From Haliotis asinina (lineage: Eukaryota > Mollusca > Gastropoda > Lepetellida > Haliotidae): a stretch of DNA of 64,000 nt. A model generated the notes under the pieces. The model saw nothing but the letters and a program-made list of their open reading frames with translations, was not told where the DNA came from and did no database searches. The DNA is taken from NCBI RefSeq assembly GCF_037392515.1, contig NC_090280.1, forward strand, positions 23,503,118 through 23,567,117. Reading direction: 5' to 3'. A program made the translations under genes and the position numbers. How positions within the stretch are numbered: position 1 is the stretch's first letter; each line of letters begins with the position of its first letter. This document shows positions 2,678 to 50,655 of this stretch, piece after piece.

Positions 2678-2741
2678 ATGTTTTTTCATTATTTTTGTCT
2701 GAAAACTGTGATCTTCTTTGGAGGCATACTGGAATTTGCTG
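2678..2741 (+). CDS. Copy 1 signal-peptide exon
   Basis: ATG then 21 codons and one base, ending at a strong GTAAGC donor (phase 1). The product is short and hydrophobic (MFFHYFCLKTVIFFGG start) and ends EFA, followed by A-S-S from the next exon, a fair signal-peptidase site. An upstream ATG at 2621 is in frame, but only type A copies have it, so the inner ATG shared by all four copies is preferred. Confidence 0.75.
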
Positions 2742-5700
2742 GTAAGCGTTTATCTTTACTTTTTATCATTCCAGTTAGGTATAAGGTGTGTTCTAAGTTT
2801 GTCATATTTTGGCAGAAACGTTTGAACTTATTTGGTGTTTTGTTTTTCGAAACATTCGACAGAACTTTAACTGAAGTAATCATCAAAGAGTGATTAATAC
2901 GATGTGCAAGGTCGGTGTTGCTGGGCAACAAGCCACTGTCTGTCCACTTGATCCATATTACTCGCCTCCTTCCACAATGTCAGGTAAAATGTGTTATATC
3001 TTACACGAGGTCAGAAAGAAGGCCCAGGGAAGCTTGGTCAGAATGCGGTCCTTTTGTGAACATAACTGTTATCATAACTATTTTCTAGTAATTCATTCAC
3101 ACATGCTCTTGGCCGAAATCTGAAACCGGGACACCAAGCACCCAACTGAGAACCATCCTTTTATATCATCATTAGTGTTGAGTGAGTTTGGTTTTACGCC
3201 CCTCTAATTGGCAATATTCCAGCAATATCACAGCAAGGGAGACGGAAAATGAACTTCACACAATGAACTCCAAAGAAGATCGAACCCGAGTGTTTGGTGG
3301 GGCCAGTGAAAGTTTTAGCCACTAGGCTGCCCCGCCGCCATTTCTGTATGATAAAGAAGTCTTGTGAGGACATGTAACTAGATAAAGACATATCAGATCA
3401 CAAAATCTTTAAAACGTCCTAAAGGACATGATAGTGGTTGGTTTTATGATGTATATTCGTCTAGAATGGAAGATAATGAGATCGTATTTTATATTTAAGA
3501 CGCGGTTTATACTGTACGAATGGAACATTTCCATCAAAATACGATAGTCAGGCGTTCGTAAATCCAAACGAATGTTTTAAACGTTCGTGGCATGTTTACG
3601 GTACTTCAGAAAACTGCCATTAAAATTAGAAGCGGTGCGACTTGTGGCAACCATGTGCTGCTACAAATATCAATGATAACGAAAGTCAACTTCTGTTATA
3701 CATTTGTCAACTTCATGAAATTGGTGAAAAGACGAAATAGATGCCAATCGCAACATCCCATCACGAAGTGTCCAAGCTGGAACGTACCAGACCGGTTTTG
3801 CAAATCACATCAACGTACACAAGAACACCATATCTCGTTTAATTAACCACCTGAAAGCAATCATGAATGTGGGGTAGCCTTGTGGGTAAGGCCTTCCATG
3901 TGGGTTCGATTCCCAACATGGGTACAGTGTGTGAAGCCAATTTCAAATGTTCTCAGCTATAGCTGGAATATTGCGAAAAGAGGCGCAAAACTAAAACACT
4001 CATTCACTCATTTGTCTCTAGTATTGTGATCAACCTTCAGCTGCTGGTGATCTTTTTTCATTCTTCTGCTGTCTGTAGTGATTGTCTTTATGATATCGTA
4101 CAAGTTTCAAACTAAGAGCAGTGAAAATCTAATATTTTTACTGTCCTGTGATGACAGCTTTACGTTAAAAATCTGTTGATTTTAATATTGATATAAATGA
4201 AATAGTTCTCGTCACGATATTGGTGCAATAGTCGTGACGTGAGGCTAAATATTAATGCAAGCACTCACGCACTCACGCACTCACGCACGCACTTCAACCC
4301 GAGAAGTGGTAGTGAGGAGTCACCAATCTCGCAAAACATCGCAACTTTCGTGTCTTTTATCAACCTCACCGCCATATACCACCAACGATACTGCTGGACA
4401 AGTGTATACCCATGTGCTGTTGATCGACCAAACAACATGAAATTAGAAAGTATTTGTTCCTTTGTTGAGTGGGGAGTGAGTGAGTAAGTGAGTGAGTTGA
4501 GTTTTACGCCGAACTCAGCAATATTCCAGCTATATGGTGGCGGTCTGTAAATAATCGAGTCTGGACCAGACAATCCAGTGACCAACACCATCAGCATCGG
4601 TCTATGCAACTGGGAACCGATGACATGTGTCAACCAAGTCAGCGAGCCTGACCACCCGATCCCGCCTTTGTTGAGAAGTCTGCACCGACAACGCCGACGT
4701 GAGGCATGGAGAAACACCTTGCATGTGTGGAGAAAATGGCGTTGTGTCTGGAGCAATGATGATTCATGAATTCTCCCTCAATGCTGAAATTGTAGGTAGC
4801 CTGTCGTCTGACGTCAAATGAAGGTATTGAGCACTTTACAACAGGTCGACAGGTTTGGTGTCGAAAGTGTGATAGTGTGGGGAATCATGTCCTGCTTGGG
4901 AAGATCTACAGGGTTGCGGTTCAGGGAACTGGTGCAGGGACCATATGTTTCAAACGGCAGACATCGTAGGATCTTAATCCGATACAGTATCATAGTGTTT
5001 GCATCGAGGTCAACATACGACAGAAACACGTTTACAGTGCATTGCGGGAAGAATGGCAGAGAAATCCACATAACATAGTACAGAGAAGTGATGATCGACA
5101 GCTCACTGAGCGGGCATCTTACGACAGGGCAGTTAGCATTGCCATTATGTGATTATCACCATAATGTCATCTTTGTATCAATCAAAATGGATCAAATATG
5201 CAATTACGCGTATTTATTTTTCAAAGTTGGCCTTTATGTTTCTTTTCTGTATCGTGTACTAATTATGCTGACATGTTTCAGCTTCTTCTACCAACACTGT
5301 GGCCCGTGTCGGACAAAATGTCAACATGACCTGGAGTGTCAGTCAGTCAGTTACGGATTTTAAGATAACATCTATCACACATAAACAACGGACACCCAAC
5401 GGAAATCGTCCCATTGTCCTGTTCATTGTGGGTGACAATAACCTTCTTGCTAGTGTCAACACACACACAGAGAACGGGACGAGGATACAGCTGACAGTCA
5501 ATACATCCATGGACGGGAGGAAGCTAGTCAGTCTCAAGTTCCACAGTGTTGACGTACAGGACGCCGGAGTCTACAACTTCGGCACTCATAACAGTGACGA
5601 GTCTCCTGGGATCCAACTTCTTATTGTACTGCGTAAGTGTGAAGACAATCTGAGTACCAAATATAAATATAAATTCCGCATCAAAAGCTAGATTTTGAGA

Positions 5701-8700
5701 CACATTGAGAGAAATATGGCGGCCACATGCAGATAATCTGCGAAATAATACTTAAAATGGAGTTTTATTATCTTAGCATCACAGTTTAATGTCGTTTACA
5801 CAGATGTCATTGCAAGAACTAATTACGATAACGATGAACGCCACCATAAAACTTCATCCAGTAACAGAATCCAGATGAAATATTACTGTTGAATGGTACA
5901 CTATGACACTGACCAATCTGCTTCCATGGCACTTTCATGAAGGTGTTGCTTGTGTTTTATGACACCTGACCTTTCTTTCTCCTTACAGACGTTTTGTAAC
6001 ACCTGACTTTCCCCTCTCACAGCAGACGCTTTATAACACCTGACCTTCTCTCCGTGCAGACGCTTTATAAGACCTGACCATCCTTTCTCCGTGCAGACGC
6101 TTTATAACAACTGACCATCCTTTCTCCGTGCAGACGTTTTATGAACAGTACCACGGATGTGGTCAACCAATTCTGCCTCACTACGTTATTGCTTCCTTGG
6201 GAATGGATAGAACATATGTCGGGAATGACGTTCACTAAGATCGATTCAAATATACTCTCCGTTCAAACGACATTCTGGCAAATGGTGACTGAATGTCACT
6301 GAATCTATAGTACATATTCATATATGTTATTAATAATTAATAAGACTAAAGGCAAGATTACAACCACTTCCATTCATCTTTTCACAGAGAAACCATCAGA
6401 ACCGAACATCATCACGACAGTTCCTGACCCTGTATCCGGTGATCCTGTCAACCTGACCTGCTCCACAACCTTCCGGAGTCTTCCTACAGACCAGTCTCTG
6501 TACCCGTATACTCTGAACACGTCCTACACCTGGAGGAGAAACAACAGCAGTGTAGACAGCAGGGTAGACAACAGAGTGCACGTGGACGGACAATTCCTGG
6601 CCATAGACTACGTCACCAAGGAGGACAAGGGAGTGTACTCGTGTCAATCTGGAGAAGAAGGACTACTGTCAGACTGGAGTCGAGGATACACACTCAATGT
6701 TCTATGTGAGTTCAGGTTGATTAATAGTGAAACAATAACTAGAAACTAGATGTTTCTTCATATACAATCCTCAAAAAATCTCATTCTACACCATGTGTTG
6801 TCACTATCAACGTTTGATGCCTAAATTCAAGTGAACATGAAGCTTGCCCATTATAAACAGAAACTACAAACTTCCTGAAATGGATTTTTTTTTTATGGAA
6901 AGACCAGAGTTATTCTGTCTCGAGATATCGCCACAGAATTCCGATCCGATTCATCATCACGCCGTGTCCTTTGTTGCAATTGCTCAGCCATTCTGCACGT
7001 ATAAGCATTAATAGAGACTATCACCTTCGCGTCTACTGATATCAGTTATATAAACACGAGTTGATAGAGTTACAAAGGCTTTCCCAGGATGTCTTTATTT
7101 TTATCAATGTGTGTGATATCAGTAGACACGAGGCTGGGATTCTAGTTACAATCAAATATCATTCTTCAATCTTGAATCCCTTTGGAAGACAGCCACATTA
7201 GATATATGGTGGCATGGGTATGATAGAAGACAATTTCAAATTTCAATATTTCAATATTTCTGACCATCTCACATTGGTGAGCCTGGACTCGACAAGGCTA
7301 GCAGATGTAGATGTGATCAGCACTAAAAGTAGAATTGGCATGAGTAAAAAATAAAACTTAACCAACTTCAAAAGTCTAAACCGAAAGTTGATGAAAAATT
7401 ATTTCAAGAGAAATTGATATACGGTGGTATTGGTTTGATAGAAGAAAATATCAAGTTATCAAATTATTATTTCTGATTATATCACATGCTTTTTCAGATG
7501 GACCTGACCAGATACAGTTTGACGGCACAAGGGACAAGCTGCAGGTAGAAGAAGGGAAACCTGTAACAGTGAGATGTTCTGCTGACTGTAACCCTGCCTG
7601 CACTGTAACCTGGAGGAACACACCCAGAATGATGGTGATTACAGGACATAGGAAGGCTGTGTTGTCCATACCAGCTGTAGATGTGTCTGTGTCTGGAGGG
7701 TACACGTGTCACGTCAACAACAGCCATGGCAGTGCATCACGCAACCTTACACTGGAGGTCCTCAGTAAGACTTGCACACATTCTTTAGTAACATAATATG
7801 CAACATTTAAAGTTGTATTTGGACAAAACTTGGAATGACACTATTCAAAATCAGTGATCATTTCAACCCGCAGTATTCATTAAGAATTCAATTTTGACCA
7901 TAATGCAATAGAAACATTCCGCCAAGGTTCTCATTTATCAGCTACAATCACAGAGGCGGTGGGGTAGCCTAGTGGTTTAAGCGTTGACTCGTCACGCCGA
8001 AAACCTTGGTTCGAATCTCCACATGGGTACAATATATGAAGTCCATTTTTGATGGACCCCTTTGTGGTGTTCCCAGAATATTGCTGAAAGCGGCGTGAAA
8101 CAGAAAGAAGTCAAGCATTCAGTCCAACAATCTCAAATGTTTCTGTTTGTCCTATAAACTGAAAATATACTCTGAAAAAAAACATGCAACGTGACAAAAT
8201 GAAATATTATTTTAGATGTCGTTTGGAAGTGCCACCGTATACCCTTTGTAATATTACGCATTGTAGAATACTGAGAGACATCCAAAGAAAGAAAGTGCCA
8301 TGCACACGTACAGAAAGTGGATACGGTATTGCCGATATAGTAGATAAGGTATTGCATATTTGCATTTAAAACAGGATTAGACACATACTAAACTGCATGG
8401 TACATATTAAATGTTTCAGCACGTGCGGTTACTGTATCTGGTGTCGTTTCCGTCGTCCCCGTGGCTGCTGTCTGTTTGGTCCTGATCGTGGTCATCGCCG
8501 TTGTCGTCATAGTGCTTGTTTGTAGAAAACACAGACTCGGGGGTAATACGGTGTGATGTGAGAGTGAATGAAAAAGTGTTCCACCGCCGTATTTTAGAAT
8601 CCTGCGTTCGTGTTTGTCTGTACGTGGTATTATTAAATTTATGCTATGCCATGATCCAGCTTGACCTTATAACCATGGAATGCATACGTTCAAAAGCACT

Positions 8701-11700
8701 TCTTTCGCACTTTAAGGGACGGTGGGGTAGCCTAGTGATTACAGTGTTTGCTCATCACGCCAAACACCTGGGTTCGATTTCCAACATAGCGACATAGGAA
8801 AAATATGTGAAACCCATTACTGTTGTCCTGTCCTATTGCTGAAATGTTGCTAAAACTAAACTTACTCAGTTGCAAAATTTAGTACTTTATGGTGTGTTGC
8901 GACTATTCCCTGCAATCTTAATAGCACGGTGTTCAGGCATTGATGTTAACAAGAAAGGAAGAAAGTCGCTTCTTTGTGAAGAAAAGGAGTCCAGCCTTTA
9001 GTGCAGTGTTTATACCCTTTAAGATACACTATTATTGAGTGACATAAACTCATCCGAGAAGTCATGTGAAATAACAGCCACCTGTGTTCTATCTACTTGA
9101 TATTTTGTTCCCTGTCTTCACCTAAAAATTCTGTAAAGAGTCTAGTATTGTTCTGCAAAATTAAATTTTGTATTTATGATTCACCTGTGTGCAACTTTAC
9201 TAATAATTCGTTGATCGTATATTTGTCATCTAACATTTTGCACGTGTGATTGTCTACTCCCTTTCAGGGAGGGGATACATTCTTAATCGGTGAGTATAAT
9301 GGCTTTGAACTTTCTAACACAATCTTAATTGATAGCATACCACAGATCAGGCTGCTGGTGGTTGGGAATAAATACGTACCCTTGTAAGCTAAAATCTTGA
9401 GACTCACCATCACCACCATCACCACTATATCATATCTTTGGAGTTTTCATCTCTCTTGACGTTTATGTATGCACAATTGTATTAATCTAGTACCACCGCT
9501 TTTTTATGACAAGTACGAAACACGACCAATCCGGTCTACACACACAAACGTGAACATCAACATCGACTTGAAGTATGGTTCCCATCAGTGCGTCACCGAC
9601 TGGGTTGTGACGCATTTCTCAAATCATGGTTACTAGACGAATCACCACTAGCGACCACAGGTGACTTGAAACGCTTCACAGTGCATTAAGTCTAGATATA
9701 ATGTACTGTGAAGAGTTTCAAGTCGGGGATCATCTCAAAATTTTCATATTTAAAAAAGTCTTTAATCCTCCCAATGGTAGCGACCACATTAGTACCTAGA
9801 TGTCGGTCTCATGACACATCCCTCAGTCTTCTTATAATGGGAATCAAGCCTCGATTCCTCTGCCATTCATTTTGTAGAACTACGTCAATTCCTCCAGAAG
9901 GATCTCCAGTCCAAATTTGTCATAACAAATAATCGAAAGACTTTCGATTTGGTTCATATCGTCAAATGATGGCTTACAAAATGTGGCACGACAACGGTAT
10001 CTAATACATCCTGTTGTTAAAGTCGATCGGTGGCTGTTCCTCAGAACCGCAGCTACAATCTCATTCTAATGGTACTGGATAGGAACCCGTGAAATCCGGG
10101 TGAGTCAGCCCATGTTTGTTGGAGGCGACTAACGGGATCGGGTGGACAGGCTCGCTTATTTGGTTAACACATGCTATTACATCTCACATGTATAGGTCGA
10201 TGCCTTCGGTGTTCATCACTTGATTGTGTGGTCCAGACTCGATTATTTACATCCCGTCACCATATAACTGAAATATTGATGTGTGCAACATTGAGAAAAA
10301 CAAGCAAACAAACAAAACTAGTGGAGAGTTGGACTCGCCAGTCTTCATTACTGACAGAGTTCTTCTGTCTGTGTCATGGTATTACATGTTTCCAGACGAA
10401 TTAAGACTCGATCATCAAGGCCATTGGTCTTTCTTCGTCTTTACTTTCCCAGTGGCCACTTGCTTCCTCACTAGGCGACTAAAACAGGTTTGGTGACCAT
10501 ACAAGTTAGCATCGAGTCAACAACAGGACATTTCATGCTTGTCAATAGCTTGTCATCGTGGATTTTCTGAAAGTCTGTCTTGCCGGTGTAAAAACATTTC
10601 CAGTTATATCACTTTCGTTAGGAAACTGCAATTATGAAATTCCCAGCACGTGTACATGTATGTAATAGATTTTGTGAAGCAATTACGTTCCAGTGTGTTT
10701 GACTGTCTGTTTGGACAAACTTTAACCATTGTAAAATTCTGTCCTCAGCATTGTCACATATACCCAGGACTCAGGAGCAGACGGGGGCTACCAGCAGATC
10801 GAAGGTTGGTGTCATAAGTCATTTTTCTAACATATTTAAATGAAATATGTAATACATCAGAAGACGTTCCTTTAAAGGTTAAAAGGTACCCATGAATCAT
10901 TAAATACTTAATGCATCACTTTTGGGTAACACTTCCTGCTTTTCTTTTTTTCATTTAAGAAAACTGTCTGAACATTCTGAACATTTGAAAATTCACGACA
11001 AATGGTGGTTACTTATTTCAGCGCAGTTACTTTTACACTTGTAATTTCTTAAACGTGTTTAAAGAGTACCAAAGTCGCATATCGACGTGCAGTAATAAAA
11101 TCATTAAGGGTGGACAAAGAACCATCTCTTTGAGTTCATCATTAACGACAGAATATTGTAACTTTCAGAGGCAGGATACGCTGATTATCGGTGAGTTTCA
11201 AATGAAATGAATAAACAGTTCATCGCCTCGAATAGCTGCCAAATTAATGCGACATGAAGCAATACTCACTCATTTATTCTCCACAAAACGGTGTGACCTT
11301 GAACGACTTCAGAGTGAAACTACACAAAATCCACATCATAATGTAATATTTTGTGTCAGTGACTTTGTGTGGACCTAATTATCATCACGTTTAATATTCA
11401 TTTCCTCACATTTTCCTCGTGTTCAATAATCACTTTCATCAGTCTGGTATCGTATCACAGGGAAGGTGAAAATGACGGCAGCTACCAGGAAATAGAAGGT
11501 TGGTGTCTGAAGGTTAACTACGAGCATGCTGTGAAAGGACTGTGAACTGTGTCAATTCGGAGCCAAGAAATGTTGCCATATGAGTCTTATTAATTATTAC
11601 GATTTTATTTTTATTCATGATTCCTGTTATAAATTAAATCCGATAAAAACATGAAATCCCTTAGTCACATTCTTATGTGTTCTGTTGTCATGACACGTCT

Positions 11701-13532
11701 ATATGACACTTCTTAATTTCCACGAAACGTAACCAGGGTACAGTGATAAAAGATCCACTAGCCTGGATAGATGTAACGGTCATGTTTCCGGTCATGCCTC
11801 ACGGATAATTCTTCCTTCTTCAGTAATTGCTTGCTTCCTTTTCCTTTTATGTGATGCAGACCGCACTGTCTTGGTTTATAAAGAATCGTAGTTTCTTTGA
11901 CAAGTTGGTCATAGAACAAATACAATTTTGCTTAGTTTTAAAAACTCTTAGTTGGCGATTATTGATGTCCGAAATATATTCAGTGTTTAGTAGGAATGAG
12001 GTAATATTTCATACCTCACGAATGATTCTTTTTCCATTGTCCATCTCTCGCTTCAGTTGATGTTTTGTGATGAAGACAGGGATCTGTTACTGTGTTATGA
12101 ATTGCAGTATCTTCGAAAAAAATACAAAAAGTATTTCTTCCAAATGTACTACAATCAGTATCTATGATTTGAAAGTAATAAGGAATATTAACGACGGATC
12201 TCATATGTGTCCAATACTAAATACATGTGTTATGTCAGGAGGTAATGTCAACGTAGGCGACATCGTCCCCATCGTAGCTGTCTACTCCGTTATGCTGACT
12301 GCTGTGGCAGTTGTGGTGGCAGCAGTCACTGTTCTTGTCTGCAAGGACGTGAAAGGTACAAAGAATGCATGAATATTTTTCATCAAATGAATCAAATGCA
12401 TTAAGTCATCAGTTCACTCCCCCTATAAACCAACAAACCTCAAGCAGCACGCCCTTATCCTTTGCCCCAAAGTGAATTGGTCTTCAGCAACCCACTGGTA
12501 TGCTCGTCATAACAGGCGAATAACGCTATCTGATTTCTTCAGCGATTTCAGTATAATTTACCAATCTATGAAGGGGTACCCGGTAGGATGAGATGATAAT
12601 GACTGTAAACCATATACTGTCTTACAATACACCTTGGAGATCCGGGTTAGAATTGATCCTGTGCAACCTATGCTTGTCACAAATGCAAATGTCTCTTTTA
12701 TTCGTTGTTGTTTGGATTCAGTAAAGGTCAGTGCAGTAGCCTAATGGTTAAAGCGATCATTCGCCACGCTGAAGACCCCTCATAATGTGTGAAGCCCATT
12801 TATGGTGTTGTTGCAGTATAGGTAAAGGTGACATGAAACTACAAGCAGTCTGTCACCCTCGCGTTCCAATCCGTGATATTTTATGAATATTGTCACAAGC
12901 AGAGAAAAAACAATACTCACTCACCTACTCGTGTTCAGTAAGTGGTAATGTAGACGATTAATTCATTTTAAGTCTTCCCTTTGTTTCGTTTTCAGATTAC
13001 CAGGGAAGAAGGTACATAAATTTACTTTTGTATCTTAAATGCTGGAGTAGTACGGAGTAGAATCTTTTTTTCTTGCCCAGCTGCTGTCTCATGTCTATGT
13101 AAAGACTATTTGCTCGACTTATATCAGAAGACTAACATCATATTTAAAGAAACAACGACATTTGGTTGACCGATGCTTTTGCTGTTGATAATTGGATTGT
13201 GTGGTCCACACTCGATTATTTACAGACATCTGCCATATAGCTGAAATATTACTGAGTGTGGCGTTAAACAACTAACAACCAAACAACAACCATCAGGATC
13301 ATCTATAGAAATATAAGTGTAATGTTGTAATTACAGATGTGGTGACTACCTTACTGTGATGGCAGAGAGATTATCCCATGACTTCAGTGATGTACCTCGT
13401 GCTTCCAACAACGATATCTTACCTCTACACGATTACGAGCGACTCCTGAGGGAACAATTCCACATCTACACGTCTCTCCACCCTTCATCTTCCTCAACAG
13501 AGGACCACAGTACCTGGCGAAACCCAAACTAA
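2678..13532 (+). CDS. Ig-superfamily type I receptor with ITAM tail, copy 1 (multi-exon)
   Basis: Predicted plasma-membrane recognition receptor. Exons: 2678-2741, 5282-5632, 6388-6705, 7498-7764, 8420-8542, 9268-9289, 10749-10804, 11169-11190, 11443-11498, [12239-12355 TM-B], 12996-13011, 13337-13532. Without TM-B the frame is continuous for 1491 bases (496 residues): signal peptide 1-21, Ig1 22-138, Ig2 139-244, Ig3 245-333, membrane exon 334-374, tyrosine-rich tail 375-496 with an ITAM core at 465-479. TM-B alone in place of TM-A and its cassettes gives 442 residues; both together give 535. All phases match at every junction and the same sites recur in the other copies. Ligand unknown. By family knowledge, ITAM tyrosines are substrates of Src-family kinases and dock Syk-type kinases. 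A database would probably label it CEACAM-, hemicentin- or CD22-like because of the Ig domains; that would not show orthology. Confidence 0.82.
3176..3345 (-). mobile_element. SINE family B, reverse, intron 1 of copy 1
   Basis: GTGAG tail on the left, ccactaggctgccccgcc on the right. In copies 2 and 4 a shared deletion leaves only gttgagtgagtt. Confidence 0.68.
3872..4020 (+). mobile_element. SINE family B in Tc1 remnant, copy 1
   Basis: gtggggtagccttgtgggta start, B box gggttcgattccc. Counterparts lie at 22655-22815, 40730-40890 and 59485-59615. Confidence 0.68.
4470..4680 (-). mobile_element. SINE family A, inside Tc1 remnant, copy 1
   Basis: Reverse orientation, starting at the GTGAG tail. 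Flanked by an 11-base duplication (cctttgttgag). Empty in copies 2 and 4. Confidence 0.75.
5282..5632 (+). CDS. Copy 1 Ig1 exon, V-like without cysteine pair
   Basis: Phase 1-1 exon between a TTTCAG acceptor and a GTAAGT donor, 117 codons. It has the V-set frame: B strand VNMTWSVS, where the cysteine position is W, and F strand DAGVYNF, where it is F. The D-x-G-x-Y motif is kept and an N-glycosylation site NGT is present. Confidence 0.85.
5961..6140 (+). repeat. Intron minisatellite between Ig1 and Ig2, copy 1
   Basis: About 5 copies of a 35-37 base unit with the form acgttttataacacctgacc then ttcctctctccctacag. Each unit carries a pyrimidine tract and CAG. Confidence 0.85.
6388..6705 (+). 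CDS. Copy 1 Ig2 exon
   Basis: Phase 1-1 exon, 106 codons, CACAG acceptor and GTGAGT donor. Canonical Ig: cysteine in VNLTCSTT, tryptophan in SYTWRRNN, cysteine in DKGVYSCQS. N-glycosylation sequons are NLT and NTS. Confidence 0.9.
7498..7764 (+). CDS. Copy 1 Ig3 exon
   Basis: Phase 1-1 exon, 89 codons, donor GTAAGA. Compact Ig domain with VTVRCSADCNPACTVTW and SGGYTCHVNNS. Two extra cysteines follow the B-strand cysteine at +4 and +8, probably a local disulfide. It ends LEVL plus one base, able to join TM-A or TM-B. Confidence 0.9.
7958..8105 (+). mobile_element. SINE family B (tRNA-derived), intron of copy 1
   Basis: Has a tRNA-like Pol III promoter: A-box region gtagcctagtggtt and B box ggttcgaatc. 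The 3' end is shared with family A. Confidence 0.7.
8420..8542 (+). CDS. Copy 1 transmembrane exon TM-A
   Basis: Phase 1-1 exon of 123 bases. It encodes a linker, then about 25 hydrophobic residues (VVPVAAVCLVLIVVIAVVVI...) followed by the basic stop-transfer CRKHR. No charged residue lies inside the membrane, so no paired adaptor is implied. Confidence 0.85.
8718..8870 (+). mobile_element. SINE family B, after TM-A of copy 1
   Basis: ggtggggtagcctagtg start, B box gggttcgattt, 3' end ttgctaaaactaaac. Counterparts lie at 27240-27400 and 45253-45405. Confidence 0.68.
9268..9289 (+). CDS. Copy 1 tail microexon 1 (22 bases)
   Basis: Microexon between CTTTCAG and GTGAGT, entering in phase 1 and leaving in phase 2. 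It encodes GRGYILN and supports the reading frame of the next exon. Conserved in copies 1-3 at the same place. Confidence 0.75.
10083..10290 (+). mobile_element. SINE family A, intron of copy 1
   Basis: Old forward copy with the aggcgactaacgggatcggg core, between microexon 1 and the first 56-base exon. Confidence 0.65.
10749..10804 (+). CDS. Copy 1 tail exon 1 (56 bases)
   Basis: Phase 2 to phase 1. Encodes IVTYTQDSGADGGYQQIE. The YQ(Q/E)I motif resembles Src-family SH2 ligands (pY-x-E-I). The donor is the unusual G|GTTGGT, identical in all copies. Confidence 0.75.
11169..11190 (+). CDS. Copy 1 tail microexon 2 (22 bases)
   Basis: Same length and phases as the first microexon, encoding EAGYADYR across its junctions. 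It forms the second cassette with the following 56-base exon. Confidence 0.75.
11443..11498 (+). CDS. Copy 1 tail exon 2 (56 bases)
   Basis: Homologous to the first 56-base exon: LVSYHREGENDGSYQEIE, phase 2 to 1, again with a GTTGGT donor. Confidence 0.75.
12239..12355 (+). CDS. Copy 1 second transmembrane exon TM-B
   Basis: Phase 1-1 exon of 117 bases, related to TM-A: DIVPIVAVYSVMLTAVAVVV... ending LVCKDVK. It can follow Ig3 directly, or TM-A and its cassettes. Alternative use is more likely, since inclusion of both would send the ITAM tail outside the cell. Confidence 0.75.
12996..13011 (+). CDS. Copy 1 tail microexon 3 (16 bases)
   Basis: TTTTCAG acceptor, GTACAT donor, phase 1 to 2, encoding DYQGR. 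It is the only way to connect the phase-1 TM or cassette exons to the phase-2 last exon. Confidence 0.7.
13168..13290 (+). mobile_element. SINE family A 3' fragment, last intron of copy 1
   Basis: Only the 3' half (ggtccacactcgattattta to gtggcgttaaac). Equivalent fragments lie near 32345-32460 and 50290-50405. Confidence 0.6.
13337..13532 (+). CDS. Copy 1 last coding exon with ITAM
   Basis: Starts after TTACAG and ends at TAA. It encodes GDYLTVM, then the ITAM core YERLLREQFHIYTSL (13434-13478: YxxL, seven residues, YxxL), then a serine-rich end. The second ITAM half lies inside an approximately 80-base tandem repeat that continues into the 3' UTR. Confidence 0.8.
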
Positions 13533-13770
13533 CGGTACAGGTCCACTTCTACAAGTGTCTTCGCCCTTCCTAGCCCTAAACAGTGGACCACAGTAACAGG
13601 TGAAGTCTAAACTGACGGTACAGTTCCATATCTGGACATCTCTCCACTCTTCATCTTCCACAACAGAGGACCACAGTACCAGGTGAAACCTAAACCGACG
13701 GTACAGTTCCACATCTACACGTCTCTCCACCCTTCACTTCTTCAACAGAGGATCAAAGTATCAGGCGAAG
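13453..13770 (+). repeat. 80-base tandem repeat across the last exon and 3' UTR, copy 1
   Basis: Four imperfect copies of an approximately 80-base unit (ttccacatctacacgtctct ... cagaggaccacagtaccagg). The first copy is coding and includes the second ITAM tyrosine; the others follow the stop codon. Confidence 0.85.
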
Positions 13771-14018
13771 CCTATATAGTTCAACATCTGCAAATTCTTC
13801 CAATTTCAGCTGGAAAAATAAGAGTACTCCAATAGGTGTGAACAGGAATGTCCACGATGTCCTCTTTTACAGAGGACGGTACTGATATCGACAGTTATGA
13901 GATATGTTCCTGCTTGCCCTCTACATACCCCTTCGAATGCAGTTACCGAACAGTATGTCCTTTCAGCGAGCGGACGCTTGTAACGAAAAGCTTTGAGCTT
14001 TACTCACAGTACATATAG

Positions 14019-17857: not shown

Positions 17858-19548
17858 TGTTTTACATTGATACGTTATTGCTAAGCAAATTACGGGGTAA
17901 ACTAAAAATGTTTGAAATATTTGACAATGTTAGATAGATAGAACTAAGTATATATATAGAGAGAGGTTAATATGTTAAATGTACTCCCGAGCGTAAGCGA
18001 GGATGCACTTTTGGATATCAGCTCATGAATATTCAGACTTCATGCCGTGGAAGAAGGAGAACACACACATCCTGTTGTACCATTCGAAATGGAGGTTGCC
18101 CAGTTCAAATCGAGACTCATTGATAGATCCAAGGAAGAGTGTACCCCCATACCCCCATCTACGACGATGAGGTTTCACTTCTCCGGCGCAACCATGACAG
18201 ATTTCCAGACGGATTGCTGCCAGAGATTCCATCTTTCAACTCTGTGAAGACAATCATGTATAGACAGAGACACAGGACTGTTCCCAGACTGCCTGCTTCC
18301 AGACCCGAGATTCATCTTGAGGACAAGTGGGCTGAGACAGAAGCTGGCGAGAGATTCCTTCATCGAATCAGCAACGACATCCTCCTCTTCACCACAGACA
18401 AGAACATGAAGATCCTGTGTGACGCAGATACAATATATTGTGACGGAACATTCTTTGCTGCACCTCGTCTCTTCCACATATATACAATTCAAGCCCAGTT
18501 CCAAGGACACATATGTTTCCCCTAGTGTATGGACTACTACAGATAGGAAGGAGACAACTTACTCTGCTGTGTTGGAGTACCTTCATCAGTTGGCTGAGAC
18601 CCTGAACTTACATTTCAGTCCTGTTGTTCAGCTGGATTTTGAGTTGGCAGCCCATAATACAGATCGGCTTTTCCCCCCAACAACCCATCTTCGGGGGTGC
18701 TTTTTTCATTATTGTCAGTGTCTTTGGAGGAGAGTCCAGAAAGAGAACCTCGTCAACGACTACAAGGAGGACGATGATGTGCGGAGGATAGTACGTCGGG
18801 CTGCTGCTCTTCCCCAGTGCCCCCTTGACAAAGTAGATGATATTTGGTTAGAATGTATTGCTGACAGCCCCGATGACCTCAAAAGTGCGATCGTTCATGG
18901 ATTATGTGACTGCTTCGTGGGTGGAGGGTAACCAGTTTTCCCTATTGGTGTGGAATCATTTCGGAAACGAAGGACCAAGGACAAATAACCACCTAGAAGG
19001 GTTCCATAACAAACTTAATCAGCAAGCCAGAAAGAGTCACCCCAATATTTTTGAAGTCGTTGGACTTTTCCAAAGGGAGCAGTCAGTGAGCGAAGTGTCC
19101 TGTGCCCGACTAACAGCCTAGCCTAGTGCTCCACAGAGGAAACGCCACTACCGGCAGATAGACAGTCGTCTTAGATCCCTGAGTCAAGATCTACGGAACC
19201 AGGACATAGATGATATGGAATATGTTGACTGTGTATCTGAACTGTTAAACTGGAGTGATGTGAGGATTACAATAATGAAATGGCAGTAACTGCTTACAGG
19301 AATATTTTTTGTGTAAACTTACATTTTACACGTATATACATTTATTTCATTTACATTGTTTGTAATATATGGCAAGCAAAACCGAACAAATTAAATATGG
19401 TGAATACGGTAACTTAGTTTTTCATTGCCTTCATTCCCGGCAAAGCTATATCTCCGTAATCACATACCGTGACGCACCCCATCCTCTATGACCGGTAAAG
19501 CTACCCCTACTTTCCTCATAATTAAGAAAGTAGCTTTCCCGGCCCACA
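17858..19548 (+). mobile_element. Broken MULE (Mutator-like) DNA transposon, unit 2 only
   Basis: Replaces the first part of the unit relative to units 1, 3 and 4. Reading pieces at 18139-18525, 18530-18931 and 18858-19121 give the MULE transposase core: CDGTFFAAPRLFHIYTIQAQ, VVQLDFELAAHN and NNHLEGFHNKLN, which hold the D, D and E positions in order. At least three frame changes (near 18520, 18535 and 18925) break it. Terminal repeats not identified. Confidence 0.7.
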
Positions 19549-30800: not shown

Positions 30801-32694
30801 TGGCCATTATTGATGTCCGAAATATATTCAGTGTTTAGTACGAACAAGGTAATATTTCATACCTCACGGATGAATCTTTTTCCATTGTCAATCTCTCGCT
30901 GCAGTTGATGTTTTGTGATGAAGACAGGGCTCTGTTAGTTTGTTATGAATTGTAGTATCTTTGAAAAAATAGCTACAAAAAGCATTTCTTCCAAATATAC
31001 TGCAATCAGTATCTGTGATTTGAAAGTAAACAGAGGATACTAAACGACCTTCCGTGTAATACCATTTTTATTAAACGAATTAATGGTTTGGTATCAGACG
31101 AGTGAAAGTGAGTTTGATACTAAATCTTTAACGAGTTTAATGTTTATTACTCGCCAGCATAAATTGACAGAAACTGCGGCGAAATTGCCTACAGTGTGAG
31201 GACTCTCAGCCTTCAAGTCAAACAAGGTCTAGTAAAATCGCGACATCAACATTAGCATTGTGACGTCACAACTGTGAACCACTTTGACGTCATACGTGAA
31301 GCGATATTACACCAGTGTATTACTGCAACCGTCGGTTCCAAATGTATTCCCGTGCTTCAAATACTCAATAACACCCGGAAATTGGCCAACACATGATGTT
31401 TATCTCCTAAATATTAACGACAGATCTCATATGTGTCCAATACTAAACACATGTGTTATATCAGGAGGTGATGTCAATGTAGACGACATCGTCCCCATCG
31501 TAGCTGTCTACTCCGTTATGCTGACTGCTGTGGCAGTTGTGGTGGCAGCAGTCACTGTTCTTGTCTACAAGGACGTAAAAGGTACAGTGAATGTATGAAT
31601 CCTTTCCATCAAATGAATCAAACGCTTTGAGTCATCAGTTCACTCCCCTCCACAAACCAACACACCTCAAGCAGCACGCCCTTACCCCAAAGTGAATTGG
31701 TCTTCAACAACCCACTGGTATGCTCGTCATAACAGGCTAGTAACGCTAGCTGATTTCTTCAGCGATTTCAGTATAATTTACCAATCAGTGAAGGGGTACC
31801 CGGTAGGATGAGATGATAATGACTGTAAACCATATACTGTCTTACAATACACCTTGGAGATCCGTTTTAGAATTGATCCTGTGCAACCTATGCTTGTCAC
31901 AAATGCAAATGTCTCTTTTATTCGTTGTTGTTTGGATTCAGTAAAGATCAGTACAGTAGCCTAATGGTTTAACAATCGTTCGCCACGCTGAAGACCCTTC
32001 ATAATGTGTGAAGCCCATTTCAGTCTCTCACCCTGGCGTTCCTATCCGTTATATTTTATGAATATTGTCATAAACAGAGAAAAACAATACTCACTCACTC
32101 ACTCACTCGTCTTCAGTAAGTGGTAATGTAGACGATTAATTCATTTTCAGTCTTCCCTTCGTTTTCAGAGGACCAGGGAAGAAGGTACATATATTTACGT
32201 TTGTATCTTTAATGCTGGAGTAGTATGGAGTAGAATCTTTATATATTTGCCCAGTTGCTGTCTCATGTCTATGTAAAGACTATTTATTCGACTTATATCA
32301 GAAGCCTAAGGTCATATTTAAACAAACAAATCAATTGCGTAGACCGATGCTTATGCTGTTGATCATTGGATTGTCTGGTCCACACTCGATTAATTACAGA
32401 CAGCTGCCATACACCTGAAATATTGCTGAGTGTGGTGTTAAATAACGAACAACCGAACAGCAACCATCAGGATCATCTATAGAAATATAAGTGTACTGTT
32501 GTAATTACAGTTGTGGTGACTACCTTACTGTGATGGCAGAGAGATTATCCCATGACTTCAGTGATGTACCTCGTGCTTCCAACAACGATGTCTTACCTCT
32601 ACATGATTACGAGAGAGTCCTGGGGAAACAGTTCCACATCTACACGTCTCTCCGCCCCTCATGTTCCTCAACAGAGGACCACAGTACCAAATGA
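21760..32694 (+). CDS. Ig-superfamily type I receptor, copy 2, weakened tail (multi-exon)
   Basis: Exons: 21760-21823, 23945-24298, 25156-25473, 26010-26276, 26935-27057, 28180-28201, 29394-29449, 30096-30117, 30384-30439, [31465-31581 TM-B], 32169-32184, 32511-32694. Without TM-B this is 1482 bases, 493 residues, all in frame. Architecture as copy 1. Differences lie in the tail: microexon 1 has tyrosine to cysteine (GRGCIFN), microexon 3 has DYQ to EDQ, and the ITAM reads YERVLGKQFHIYTSL, so the first YxxL is YxxV. The Ig3 donor is GTACGA in place of GTAAGA. The reading frame is open throughout, so this looks like a diverged functional gene rather than a pseudogene, perhaps with altered signalling. 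Its intron before microexon 2 holds a full-length SINE. Confidence 0.8.
22475..23745 (+). mobile_element. Tc1-like transposase remnant in intron 1, copy 2
   Basis: Same element, lacking the internal SINE found in type A copies. The VWG region is rearranged after 23490, where a short ATGGC-type repeat lies. Confidence 0.6.
22655..22815 (+). mobile_element. SINE family B in Tc1 remnant, copy 2
   Basis: Counterpart of the 3872 copy with a short CACT tail. Confidence 0.66.
23945..24298 (+). CDS. Copy 2 Ig1 exon
   Basis: 118 codons, phase 1-1. VNMTWSVS and DAGVYNL again replace the cysteine pair. The C to C' region differs strongly from the other copies and holds a lone cysteine (NRSCPTVLF). Confidence 0.85.
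24629..24895 (+). repeat. Intron minisatellite between Ig1 and Ig2, copy 2
   Basis: About 7 copies of the same unit. Confidence 0.85.
25156..25473 (+). CDS. Copy 2 Ig2 exon
   Basis: 106 codons with VNLTCSTT, SYTWRRNN and GVYSCQS. Nearly identical to copy 1, phase 1-1. Confidence 0.9.
26010..26276 (+). CDS. Copy 2 Ig3 exon
   Basis: 89 codons, with the four-cysteine pattern RCSADCNPAC and YTCHV. The donor GTACGA is weaker than the GTAAGA of the other copies. Confidence 0.88.
26464..26610 (+). mobile_element. SINE family B, intron of copy 2
   Basis: Counterpart of the 7958 copy. Confidence 0.7.
26935..27057 (+). CDS. Copy 2 TM-A exon
   Basis: Phase 1-1, 123 bases. The linker RELNESGVVS leads into the same hydrophobic segment and CRKHR stop-transfer as copy 1. 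Confidence 0.85.
27240..27400 (+). mobile_element. SINE family B, after TM-A of copy 2
   Basis: Counterpart of the 8718 copy with a CACT tail. Confidence 0.68.
27478..27850. other. Unit 2-specific intron insertion, unidentified
   Basis: About 370 AT-rich bases starting aaccgggaaatagctgg, not found at this site in copies 1 and 3. No coding capacity, promoter boxes or inverted ends seen. Confidence 0.6.
28180..28201 (+). CDS. Copy 2 tail microexon 1
   Basis: 22 bases with intact splice sites. TAC has become TGC, so the tyrosine is lost (GRGCIFN). Confidence 0.7.
28738..28950 (+). mobile_element. SINE family A, intron of copy 2
   Basis: Counterpart of the 10083 copy. Confidence 0.65.
29394..29449 (+). 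CDS. Copy 2 tail exon 1
   Basis: 56 bases, IVTYTRDSGEDGGYQEIE, donor GTTGGT. Confidence 0.75.
29657..29938 (+). mobile_element. Full-length SINE (family A), copy 2 intron
   Basis: Starts gacccgtgaaggtcccgggg and ends with a (CACT)n tail, about 280 bases. Flanked by an imperfect 11-base duplication (acttacttcag and acttatttcag). The empty site is seen in copies 1 (near 11012) and 3 (near 48172). Confidence 0.8.
30096..30117 (+). CDS. Copy 2 tail microexon 2
   Basis: 22 bases encoding ETGYADYR across its junctions, donor GTGAGT. Confidence 0.75.
30384..30439 (+). CDS. Copy 2 tail exon 2
   Basis: 56 bases, LVSYHREGENDGSYQQIE, donor GTTGGT. Confidence 0.75.
31030..31410. other. Unit 2-specific insertion just before TM-B
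   Basis: About 380 bases absent from copies 1 and 3. It contains gtgacgtcac and tgacgtcata, CRE-like palindromic sites, within 30 bases of each other. No transposon hallmarks identified. Confidence 0.55.
31465..31581 (+). CDS. Copy 2 TM-B exon
   Basis: 117 bases, phase 1-1, DIVPIVAVYSVMLTAV... ending LVYKDVK. The juxtamembrane cysteine of copies 1 and 3 is tyrosine here. Confidence 0.75.
32169..32184 (+). CDS. Copy 2 tail microexon 3
   Basis: 16 bases, TTTTCAG acceptor and GTACAT donor. It encodes EDQGR, having lost the tyrosine of DYQGR. Confidence 0.65.
32511..32694 (+). CDS. Copy 2 last coding exon, altered ITAM
   Basis: Encodes GDYLTVM and, at 32608-32652, YERVLGKQFHIYTSL, where valine replaces the first ITAM leucine. 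It ends HSTK and TGA, four residues shorter than the other copies. Confidence 0.78.
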
Positions 32695-48600: not shown

Positions 48601-50655
48601 CAGTCTGGTATTGTATCACAGGGAAGATGAAAATGACGGCAGCTACCAGGAAATAGAAGGTTGGTGTCTCAAGGTTAACTACGAGCATGCTGTGAAAGGA
48701 CTGTGAACTGTGTCAATTCGGAGCCAAGAAATGTTGCCATATAAGTCTTATTAATTATTACGATTTTATTATTCATGATTCCTGTTATAAATTAAATCCG
48801 ATAAAAACATGAAATCCCTTAGTCACATTCTTATGTGTTCTGGTGTCATGATGCGTCTATATGACACTTCTTAATTTCCACGAAACGTAACCAGGGTACA
48901 GTGATAAAAGATCCACTAGCCTGGATAGATGTAACGGTCATGTTTCCGGTCATGCCTCACGGATAATTCTTCCTCCTTCAGTAATTGCTTTCTTCCTTTT
49001 CCTTTTATGTGATGCAGACACATGGTTTATAAAGAATCGTAGTTTCTTTGACAAGTTGGTCATAGAACAAATACAATTTTGCTTAGTTTTAAAAACTCTT
49101 AGTTGGCGATTATTGATGTCAGGAATATATTCAGTGTTTAGTAGGAATGAGGTAATATTTCATACCTCACGAATGATTCTTTTTCCATTGTCCATCTCTC
49201 GCTTCAGTTGATGTTTTGTGATGAAGACAGGGATCTGTTACTTTGTTATGAATTGCAGTATCTTCGAAAAAAATACAAAAAGTATTTCTTCCAAATGTAC
49301 TACAATCAGTATCTTTGATTTGAAAGTAATAAGGAATATTAACGACGGATCTCATATGTTTCCATTGCTAAATACATGTGTTATATCAGGAGGTGATGTC
49401 AACGTAGACGAAATCGTCCCCATCGTAGCTGTCTACTCCGTTATGCTGACTGCTGTGGCAGTTGTGGTGGCAGCAGTCACTGTTCTTGTCTGCAAGGACG
49501 TGAAAGGTACAAAGAATGCATGAATATTTTTCATCAAATGAATCAAATGCATTAAGTCATCAGTTCACTCTCCCCCATAAACCAACAAACCTCAAGCAGC
49601 ACGCCTTTATCCTTTGCCCCAAAGTGAATTGGTCTTCAGCAACCCACTGGTATGCTCGTCATAACAGGTCAATAACGCTAGCTGATTTCTTCAGCGATTT
49701 CAGTATAATTTACCAATCAATGAAGGGGTACCCGGTAGGATGAGATGAAAATGACTAAACCATACACTGTCTTACAATACACCTTGGAGATCCGGGTCAG
49801 AATTGATCCTGTGCAACATATGCTTGTCACAAATGCAAATGTCTCTTTTATTCGTTGTTGTTTGGATTCAGTAAAGGTCAGTGCAGTAGCCTAAAGTTAA
49901 AGCGATCATTCGCCACGCTGAAGACACCTAATAATGTGTGAAGCAGTATAGGTAAAGGTGACATGAAACTACACGCAGTCTGTCTGTCCAATCGGTGATA
50001 TTTTATGAATATTGTCATAAGCAGAGAAAAAACAATACTCACTCACCTACTCGTGTTCAGTAAGTGGCAATGTAGACGATTAATTCATTTTAAGTGTTCC
50101 CTTTGTTTCGTTTTCAGATTACCAGGGAAGAAGGTACATATATTTACTTTTGTATCTTTAATGTTGGAGTAGTATGGAGTAGAATCTTTTTTTCTTGCCC
50201 AGCTGCTGTCTCATGTCTATGTAAAGACTATTTGCTCGACTTATATCAGAAGACTAACATCATATTTAAAGAAACAACGAAAATTTGGTAGACCGATGCT
50301 TATGCTGTTGATCATTGGATTGTCTGGTCCACACTCGATTATTTACAGACAGCTGCCATATAGCTGAAGTATTACTGAGTGTGGCGTTAAACAACAAACA
50401 ACCAAACAACAACCATCAGGATCATCTATAGAAATATAAGTGTACTGTTGTAATTACAGATGTGGTGACTACCTTACTGTGATGGCAGAGAGATTATCCT
50501 ATGACTTCAGTGATGTACCTCGTGCTTCCAACAACGATGTCTTACCTCTACACGATTACGAGCGACTCCTGAGGGAACAATTCCACATCTACACGTCTCT
50601 CCACCCTTCATCTTCCTCAACAGAGGACCACAGTACCTGGCGAAACCCAAACTGA
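39552..50655 (+). CDS. Ig-superfamily type I receptor with ITAM tail, copy 3 (multi-exon)
   Basis: Exons: 39552-39615, 42053-42406, 43151-43468, 44044-44310, 44946-45068, 45830-45851, 47913-47968, 48330-48351, 48604-48659, [49390-49506 TM-B], 50118-50133, 50460-50655. Without TM-B this is 1494 bases, 497 residues, in frame throughout. It is the type A sister of copy 1 and keeps every tail tyrosine and a perfect ITAM core (YERLLREQFHIYTSL, 50557-50601). Its Ig1 is the most diverged in the E-F region (VILTFHSVD, VYYLTTHNS). The intron after microexon 1 holds an approximately 740-base inverted-repeat element absent from copies 1 and 2. Confidence 0.82.
40035..40205 (-). mobile_element. SINE family B, reverse, intron 1 of copy 3
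   Basis: Counterpart of the 3176 copy. Confidence 0.68.
40730..40890 (+). mobile_element. SINE family B in Tc1 remnant, copy 3
   Basis: Counterpart of the 3872 copy with a short CACT tail. Confidence 0.68.
41245..41448 (-). mobile_element. SINE family A, inside Tc1 remnant, copy 3
   Basis: Same insertion and same target duplication as in copy 1. Confidence 0.75.
42053..42406 (+). CDS. Copy 3 Ig1 exon
   Basis: 118 codons, phase 1-1, VNVTWSVS and DAGVYYL. It lacks the cysteine pair and has extra sequons (NVT, NGT, NVS). Confidence 0.85.
42747..42895 (+). repeat. Intron minisatellite between Ig1 and Ig2, copy 3
   Basis: About 4 copies of the same unit. Confidence 0.85.
43151..43468 (+). CDS. 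Copy 3 Ig2 exon
   Basis: 106 codons with both canonical cysteines and SYTWRRNN, phase 1-1, donor GTGAGT. Confidence 0.9.
44044..44310 (+). CDS. Copy 3 Ig3 exon
   Basis: 89 codons, RCSADCNPACSVTW and YTCHVNNT, donor GTAAGA. Shares VVITGHRE and LILEVIS with copy 4. Confidence 0.9.
44498..44630 (+). mobile_element. SINE family B, intron of copy 3 (5' truncated)
   Basis: Counterpart of the 7958 copy, missing the A-box region. Confidence 0.65.
44946..45068 (+). CDS. Copy 3 TM-A exon
   Basis: Phase 1-1, 123 bases, MVPVAAVCLVLIVVIAVVVI... with the stop-transfer CRKDR. Confidence 0.85.
45253..45405 (+). mobile_element. SINE family B, after TM-A of copy 3
   Basis: Counterpart of the 8718 copy with a CACT tail. 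Confidence 0.68.
45830..45851 (+). CDS. Copy 3 tail microexon 1
   Basis: 22 bases encoding GRGYNLN, CTTTCAG acceptor and GTGAGT donor. Confidence 0.75.
46145..46887 (+). mobile_element. Inverted-repeat (MITE-like) element in copy 3
   Basis: Termini of about 24 bases are inverted: 'ctgctagacacatattagat' at the left and its near reverse complement (two mismatches) at the right. No coding capacity seen. Absent at this site in copies 1 and 2; a target duplication is not clear. Confidence 0.65.
47300..47490 (+). mobile_element. SINE family A, intron of copy 3
   Basis: Counterpart of the 10083 copy, shortened near its 3' end. Confidence 0.6.
47913..47968 (+). CDS. Copy 3 tail exon 1
   Basis: 56 bases, IVTYTRDSGADGGYQEIE, donor GTTGGT. 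Confidence 0.75.
48330..48351 (+). CDS. Copy 3 tail microexon 2
   Basis: 22 bases encoding ETGYADYR across its junctions. Confidence 0.75.
48604..48659 (+). CDS. Copy 3 tail exon 2
   Basis: 56 bases, LVLYHREDENDGSYQEIE, donor GTTGGT. Confidence 0.75.
49390..49506 (+). CDS. Copy 3 TM-B exon
   Basis: 117 bases, phase 1-1, EIVPIVAVYSVMLTAV... ending LVCKDVK. Confidence 0.75.
50118..50133 (+). CDS. Copy 3 tail microexon 3
   Basis: 16 bases, DYQGR, identical to copy 1. Confidence 0.7.
50460..50655 (+). CDS. Copy 3 last coding exon with ITAM
   Basis: 196 bases including the stop. GDYLTVM and the perfect ITAM core YERLLREQFHIYTSL; ends WRNPN. Followed by the same 80-base tandem repeats as copy 1. 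Confidence 0.8.

Follow-up and report, generated by a model that had tools for sequence, protein, structure and literature searches.

Does a mollusc carry in its germline an array of self-contained immunoglobulin (Ig) receptors whose tails bear an immunoreceptor tyrosine-based activation motif (ITAM)? The question is raised by C1:23503118-23567117 in the 1.14-Gb genome of the abalone Haliotis asinina, the whole stretch of 64,000 nucleotides that was analysed and is called here the window. It contains four tandem copies of a unit of 18-19 kb. A sequence-only reading had taken these for copies of a three-Ig receptor with a canonical ITAM in the last exon, and the gene model, Pfam matches and a genome search bore out both the three-Ig receptor and the tandem array. 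A conserved ITAM-like tail on this abalone array is real, and the tail is probably functional if it faces the cytosol. The elements that carry the motif are:

12996..13011, + strand: m3, 16-base microexon fixing the reading frame of the copy 1 tail (gene model; seen in 56 of 57 genomic copies)
13337..13532, + strand: tail exon of copy 1, with YLTV, then YERLLREQFHIYTSL at 13434-13478 and the stop codon at 13530-13532 (translation, gene model)
32512..32688, + strand: tail exon of copy 2, YERVLGKQFHIYTSL (translation)
50461..50652, + strand: tail exon of copy 3, YERLLREQFHIYTSL at 50557-50601 (translation)
13446..13774, + strand: 83-bp minisatellite of four units, of which unit 1 encodes the second YxxL and the later ones lie past the stop codon (repeat scan)

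Translation confirmed that copies 1 and 3 encode the same peptide and that the YxxL-x7-YxxL spacing claimed for it, which is also that of CD3 epsilon, is present. The tail exon of copy 4 (L016) lies outside the window and reads YKRVLREQFHIYTSL. Whether the motif deserves the name canonical depends on the feature considered: the L/I pattern and the spacing agree, whereas the acidic residue stands at -1 (D) and not at -3, its place upstream of a classical ITAM. The predicted joining of m3 to the tail exon in frame was upheld by a gene model with GT-AG borders and consistent phases, and m3 is flanked by AG before and GT after in every genomic copy except L048.

A search of the genome with the tail exon recovered at least 57 full-length copies, a lower bound because only 150 of 332 candidates were scored. 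Fifty-five lie at C1:22.35-23.57 Mb, on both strands and within 1.2 Mb, and two near 28.06-28.09 Mb. They encode 43 distinct proteins and, in their first 47 codons, comprise 45 different DNA sequences. Both tyrosines and the distance between them were unchanged in all 57. The strict pattern YxxLx7YxxL was found in 41 copies, its L/I form in 42 and its LIVM form in 51; the residue at the first +3 position is L in 42, V in 9, P in 4, F in 1 and I in 1, and at the second it is L in 56 and F in 1. The four copies reading YELP have probably lost the first site; YERV and YTSF are other natural forms. Upstream, the residue at -3 is always L, that at -1 is acidic in 55 of the 57, and the tyrosine of YLTV is kept in the same number.

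Public protein models gave a similar result. Of the 31 tail-bearing models, drawn from four Haliotis species, 28 have the strict motif (asinina 11/13, cracherodii 8/9, rubra 6/6, rufescens 3/3), the exceptions being P0002, P0027 and P0038, and eleven H. asinina models have tails identical to genomic ones. The distance between the tyrosines was the same in 29 of 30 pattern-matched models, whereas elsewhere in the tail insertions and deletions (indels) separate the species. A protein search for the tail in other molluscs had been proposed as a check: it occurs in H. rubra, H. rufescens and H. cracherodii, but outside Haliotis the protein search returned a single weak match (P0064), in a procedure that needs shared 5-residue words and scored the 8000 best candidates, so that distant kin could escape.

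To compare rates of change between the parts of the receptor, ratios of nonsynonymous to synonymous substitution (dN/dS) were estimated pairwise, without recombination control, for 12 genes of the window's subfamily (family A) out of the 23 loci that were read at length (20 fetched and 3 from the window; for the remaining 34 copies, reading was confined to the surroundings of the tail). Exons that covered less than 85% of the query or contained a stop were excluded, the tail (47 codons) being exempt from the coverage rule. Ig1 gave 1.56 (bootstrap interval 1.03-2.56), Ig2 0.43 and Ig3 0.86; the two transmembrane (TM) exons gave 1.21 (0.48-5.53) for TM1 and 0.53 (0.16-1.98) for TM2, and the tail 0.37 (0.13-1.28). 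A second subfamily (6 to 9 genes) gave 0.73 for Ig1 and 0.26 for the tail; thus, the Ig1 excess is limited to one subfamily.

Shuffling the residues of the 64-residue tail produced YxxLx7YxxL in 0.0009 of trials and YxxL/Ix6-8YxxL/I in 0.004; with the 122-residue combined tail the frequencies were 0.004 for the strict form and 0.034 for the L/I x6-8 form. Because the second YxxL lies inside the minisatellite, the untranslated units could serve as a control. Among 88 such units, the Tyr codon is retained in 68 and the Leu codon in 69, compared with 57/57 and 56/57 in the translated unit (Fisher p of 3e-5 for Tyr and 4e-4 for Leu, values that overstate the certainty because the units share ancestry). 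With the shuffle frequencies and this control, an origin of the motif by chance was set aside. The control bears equally on the proposal that the motif is a functionless by-product of the minisatellite and of recent duplication. The position of the second YxxL within unit 1 fits that proposal, as do the small number of distinct proteins among the copies and the near-identical blocks, some of them about 333 kb apart, which may reflect segmental duplication or an effect of assembly. The higher loss of both codons from untranslated units, the presence of the motif in models from the three other Haliotis species and the slower amino-acid than synonymous change across the tail all speak against it, and we regard it as very improbable. 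The repeat itself is seen in other settings: C1:22386197-22397325 holds a run of many FHIYTSL-derived units at about 83 bp spacing with open frames of 78 amino acids, and in P0021 two extra QFHIYTSF units are read into the tail.

The constancy of spacing also matters for a different reading of the same residues, in which the two YxxL would be separate YxxPhi sorting signals for clathrin adaptors, the receptor would be endocytic and the ITAM-like spacing incidental. The residues allow it, since the first +3 position is L, V, I or F in 53 of 57 copies (P in 4) and the second L or F in all. Clathrin adaptors require no fixed spacing between such signals, so a tyrosine distance that stays constant in all genomic copies and in 29 of 30 models, despite indels elsewhere in the tail, counts against the sorting proposal, which seems to us quite unlikely as the sole explanation. 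The YxxPhi and ITAM readings are mutually compatible.

The interpretation turns on which side of the membrane the tail lies. Copy 1 consists of twelve coding exons, all with GT-AG borders and consistent phases, in the order signal peptide, Ig1, Ig2, Ig3, TM1, m1, c1, m2, c2, TM2, m3 and tail exon (end at 13532). The exons upstream of m3 are:

2678..2741, + strand: signal-peptide exon, MFFHYFCLKTVIFFGGILEFA, a hydrophobic leader with the phase-1 donor CTG/GTAAGC
5282..5632, + strand: Ig1, V-set type (gene model; Pfam V-set match 26-128)
6388..6705, + strand: Ig2 (gene model; Pfam)
7498..7764, + strand: Ig3 (gene model; Pfam I-set best stretch 251-332)
8420..8542, + strand: TM1 exon, phase 1-1 (gene model)
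9268..9289, + strand: m1, 22-base microexon (gene model; its residues are found in public models, e.g. P0002)
10749..10804, + strand: c1 cassette, YQQI in copy 1 and YEEI or YQEI in relatives (gene model, model comparison)
11169..11190, + strand: m2, 22-base microexon (gene model)
11443..11498, + strand: c2 cassette, YQEI (gene model, model comparison)
12239..12355, + strand: TM2 exon, phase 1-1, homologue of TM1 (gene model, alignment)

The signal-peptide exon is present in all four window copies (the other starts are 21760, 39552 and 58595; the donor of copy 4 is CTG/GTAAGG). Pfam assigned a V-set domain to Ig1, which in the window's subfamily lacks the usual Cys pair, and I-set/Ig domains to Ig2 and Ig3. 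An AlphaFold model of a relative, P0016, of low confidence (mean predicted local distance difference test score, pLDDT, 58), shows three stretches rich in strands and a pair of long hydrophobic helices. Its first matches in the PDB, the ectodomains of Necl-4, IgLON5/NEGR1, nectin-1, MAG and CD22 at about 20% identity, name the predicted fold class only.

The sequence-only reading had placed the motif on the cytoplasmic side on the understanding that one TM exon is used; when TM1 and TM2 are both used, the motif lies outside the cell. All 31 tail-bearing models, which are of the predicted type, were checked for the two hydrophobic segments, and 30 of them, from four species, contain both, P0021 and P0029 with TM1 joined to TM2 without the cassettes; one gene escapes. 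Taken at face value, these models mean that the receptor normally passes the membrane twice, with only the YxxI cassettes in the cytosol and the YxxL pair extracellular and unrelated to signalling. The two long helices of the P0016 model agree with this, and most of the 23 loci read at length have both TM exons open. All these exons, however, are of phase 1-1 and can easily be chained in frame by gene predictors, so the models with both segments are weak but real counter-evidence to a cytosolic tail. TM2 is, moreover, a copy of TM1 (alignment scores of 64 and 63 in two genes, each above all of 1000 shuffles), each segment has a cysteine at its end with charged residues after it, and the flanks of TM2 are those of a segment with its N-terminus outside and its C-terminus inside. 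Per 12 residues, the stretch before TM2 contains 5.8 acidic and 0.1 basic residues and the stretch after it 3.5 basic and 2.5 acidic ones (32 models); after TM1 there are 4.9 basic and 0.8 acidic ones (53 models). Each segment alone thus favours a cytosolic C-terminus. N-glycosylation sequons number 252 in 9585 residues of ectodomain, none in 2010 of the c1/c2 loop and 6 in 2288 of tail, and a tail nearly free of sequons with both tyrosines and their distance fixed is not what double passage predicts.

The gene that escapes is P0027 (L042, L069), modelled as TM1-m3-tail. About 0.8 kb separates TM1 from the tail exon and contains m3 (GGAACCAGGACAACAG between AG and GT), and TM2 or cassette sequence was not detectable in the 5.7 kb read. 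On its model, this gene is a natural single-pass version of the receptor. YEEI and YQEI are good ligands of Src-family SH2 domains, and neither these loop motifs nor a tail ITAM would make sense outside the cytosol, which points to alternative use of TM1 and TM2. Weighing flanks, sequons and the gene without TM2 against the models with both segments, we judge double passage as the normal state unlikely, and it is likely that the tail is cytosolic in at least some transcripts.

A cytosolic ITAM would need a reader, and the genome encodes a Syk-type kinase. On the minus strand, SH2 domains are matched at C7:18131660, 18125595 and 18112183, and kinase exons lie at 18040471 and 18025725. In order, these translate to SYK-like N-SH2, C-SH2 and catalytic pieces, that is, two SH2 domains followed by a tyrosine kinase domain closest to SYK/ZAP-70, recognised from pieces with most of the intervening sequence unread. 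SYK and ZAP-70 are the top PDB relatives of the joined SH2 piece. For the kinase piece an EGFR entry heads the list because its chain holds two kinase copies (105 bits each), ZAP-70 reaching 159 bits. The linker residues beside both SH2 pieces are SYK-like, and ankyrin repeats of the Shark type could sit in the unread sequence between the exons. On the same chromosome, several SH2 and tyrosine-kinase exon matches cluster at C7:54.50-54.61 Mb and may represent an expanded family of non-receptor kinases.

The explanation that we prefer, with moderate confidence, is that the tail exon would be the signalling tail of a large tandem family of abalone type-I Ig receptors, its motif working as an ITAM through Syk and its TM exons being used alternatively. 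A ligand would cluster the receptor, and both tyrosines would be phosphorylated by a Src-family kinase, for which the YEEI/YQEI cassettes may be the docking place; the abalone Syk homologue could then bind the doubly phosphorylated tail peptide (DYERLLREQFHIYTSL) with its two SH2 domains together and start signalling. The signalling transcript would join TM1, the cassettes and the tail, or TM2 and the tail, so that the motif faces the cytosol, and the role of such receptors would presumably be immune.

Besides the 30 models with both TM segments, several results weigh against this explanation. The ITAM L/I pattern is missing from 15 of the 57 copies, and in 15 the first +3 Leu has given way to V, P, F or I. 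When the four Y/L codons are pooled, amino-acid change is not reduced (ratio 1.43), because the first +3 position varies, and the bootstrap interval of the tail dN/dS reaches 1.28. In the P0027 gene, the one without TM2, the motif reads YERL...YTSF and the YLTV tyrosine is lost. Some copies may not be working genes: within the 10 kb read, L009, L013, L023 and part of L019 miss Ig exons and L021, L027 and L028 miss Ig1, and a stop interrupts Ig2 of L028.

Beyond the ITAM-like block, a search with Ig3, in which 150 of 233 candidates were scored, placed 97 of at least 121 matches at C1:22.35-28.07 Mb, two of these being pieces of one place. The last exon of a second tail class (YATV...YADP...YEQI, query P0008) was found 25 times at C1:24.24-27.15 Mb, one of them partial, and once at 2.96 Mb. 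From these positions, the two tail classes sit in separate neighbouring blocks. The strict pattern of the immunoreceptor tyrosine-based inhibitory motif (ITIM) is present in two of four models of the second class (P0046 and P0058, not P0008 and P0044). A wider reading, which we put forward as speculative and consider doubtful, would see here a paired-receptor complex of about 6 Mb comprising some 100 Ig receptors encoded in the germline, their V-set tips diversifying; ITAMs would end one block and another kind of tyrosine tail the next. Where the tails are ITAMs, the duplicated TM exons would let splicing decide whether the ITAM reaches Syk, and with which Src-docking cassettes, or sits outside the cell, as a splice-controlled switch of topology.

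The sequence-only reading had seen in the array a striking parallel to vertebrate activating receptors. The likeness stands in that the array is ITAM-like: the YxxL-x7-YxxL spacing is shared with vertebrate ITAM receptors and paired-receptor clusters (CD3, FcR, KIR/LILR, Siglec), and, as in paired-receptor clusters, neighbouring genes of one family have different tyrosine tails. Unlike in vertebrate ITAM receptors, the abalone ITAM is on the Ig-bearing chain itself and the TM cores (both TM1 and TM2) contain no charged residue, and the second tail class differs from a paired-receptor ITIM in that only two of four models have the strict pattern. The parallel is less striking because ITAM or hemITAM receptors of the Ig superfamily (IgSF) have already been reported in invertebrates. 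According to a review, CgIgIT2 of the oyster Crassostrea gigas has five Ig domains, a TM segment and an ITAM and signals through ERK, although the paper cited for it is titled as describing an inhibitory receptor (PMC11999971). CgIgIT2 and the receptor of 'An ancient BCR-like signaling' resemble the abalone proteins as mollusc receptors with a multi-Ig ectodomain, a TM segment and tyrosine motifs; compared by description only, the oyster receptor differs in its five Ig domains and in that this text mentions no large array, against three Ig domains and an array in the abalone (PMC11999971). The fester co-receptors (FcoR) of Botryllus, a 53-locus IgSF family in one locus with ITIM or hemITAM tails and motif-swapping splicing, share the clustering and the tyrosine-motif tails but belong to a tunicate, combine V-Ig, sushi and two C2-Ig domains, and have a hemITAM where the abalone has two YxxL in one ITAM, as far as the available text describes them (PMC12065747). 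The Alr family of Hydractinia, with 41 clustered IgSF members and ITAM/ITIM-type motifs in the same two sources (PMC11999971, PMC12065747), is alike in clustering and motif type, a likeness by description only, and differs in being cnidarian and serving allorecognition. Given these oyster, Botryllus and Hydractinia reports, ITAM-type IgSF receptors in invertebrates, molluscs included, are not new. Against what these texts describe, the size of an array with a two-YxxL motif on each copy's tail exon, the duplicated TM exons and the adjoining block with another tail are apparently new (PMC11999971, PMC12065747), and a literature search whose coverage excluded most subscription papers found no paper on the Haliotis array. 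If the tail is cytosolic, abalones would possess in their germline a large set of self-contained ITAM receptors whose tips change fast, the molluscan equivalent of vertebrate activating-receptor clusters in animals without antibodies, and how often Syk/ITAM recognition systems arose independently could be put to the test.

Other elements were observed in the window and in related models. A 37-bp minisatellite lies between Ig1 and Ig2 in every copy (5956-6147, 24623-24888, 42741-42892 and 61616-62145); its unit resembles a repeated 3' splice site, pyrimidines then CAG, and thus a row of possible decoy acceptors. Open frames at 18127-19121 resemble a MULE-type transposase (PF10551, E 0.0034, under the curated cut-off), and the model P0002 is fused to a DDE transposase stretch (PF13358). 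A near-perfect CACT repeat of 68 copies occupies 59616-59888.

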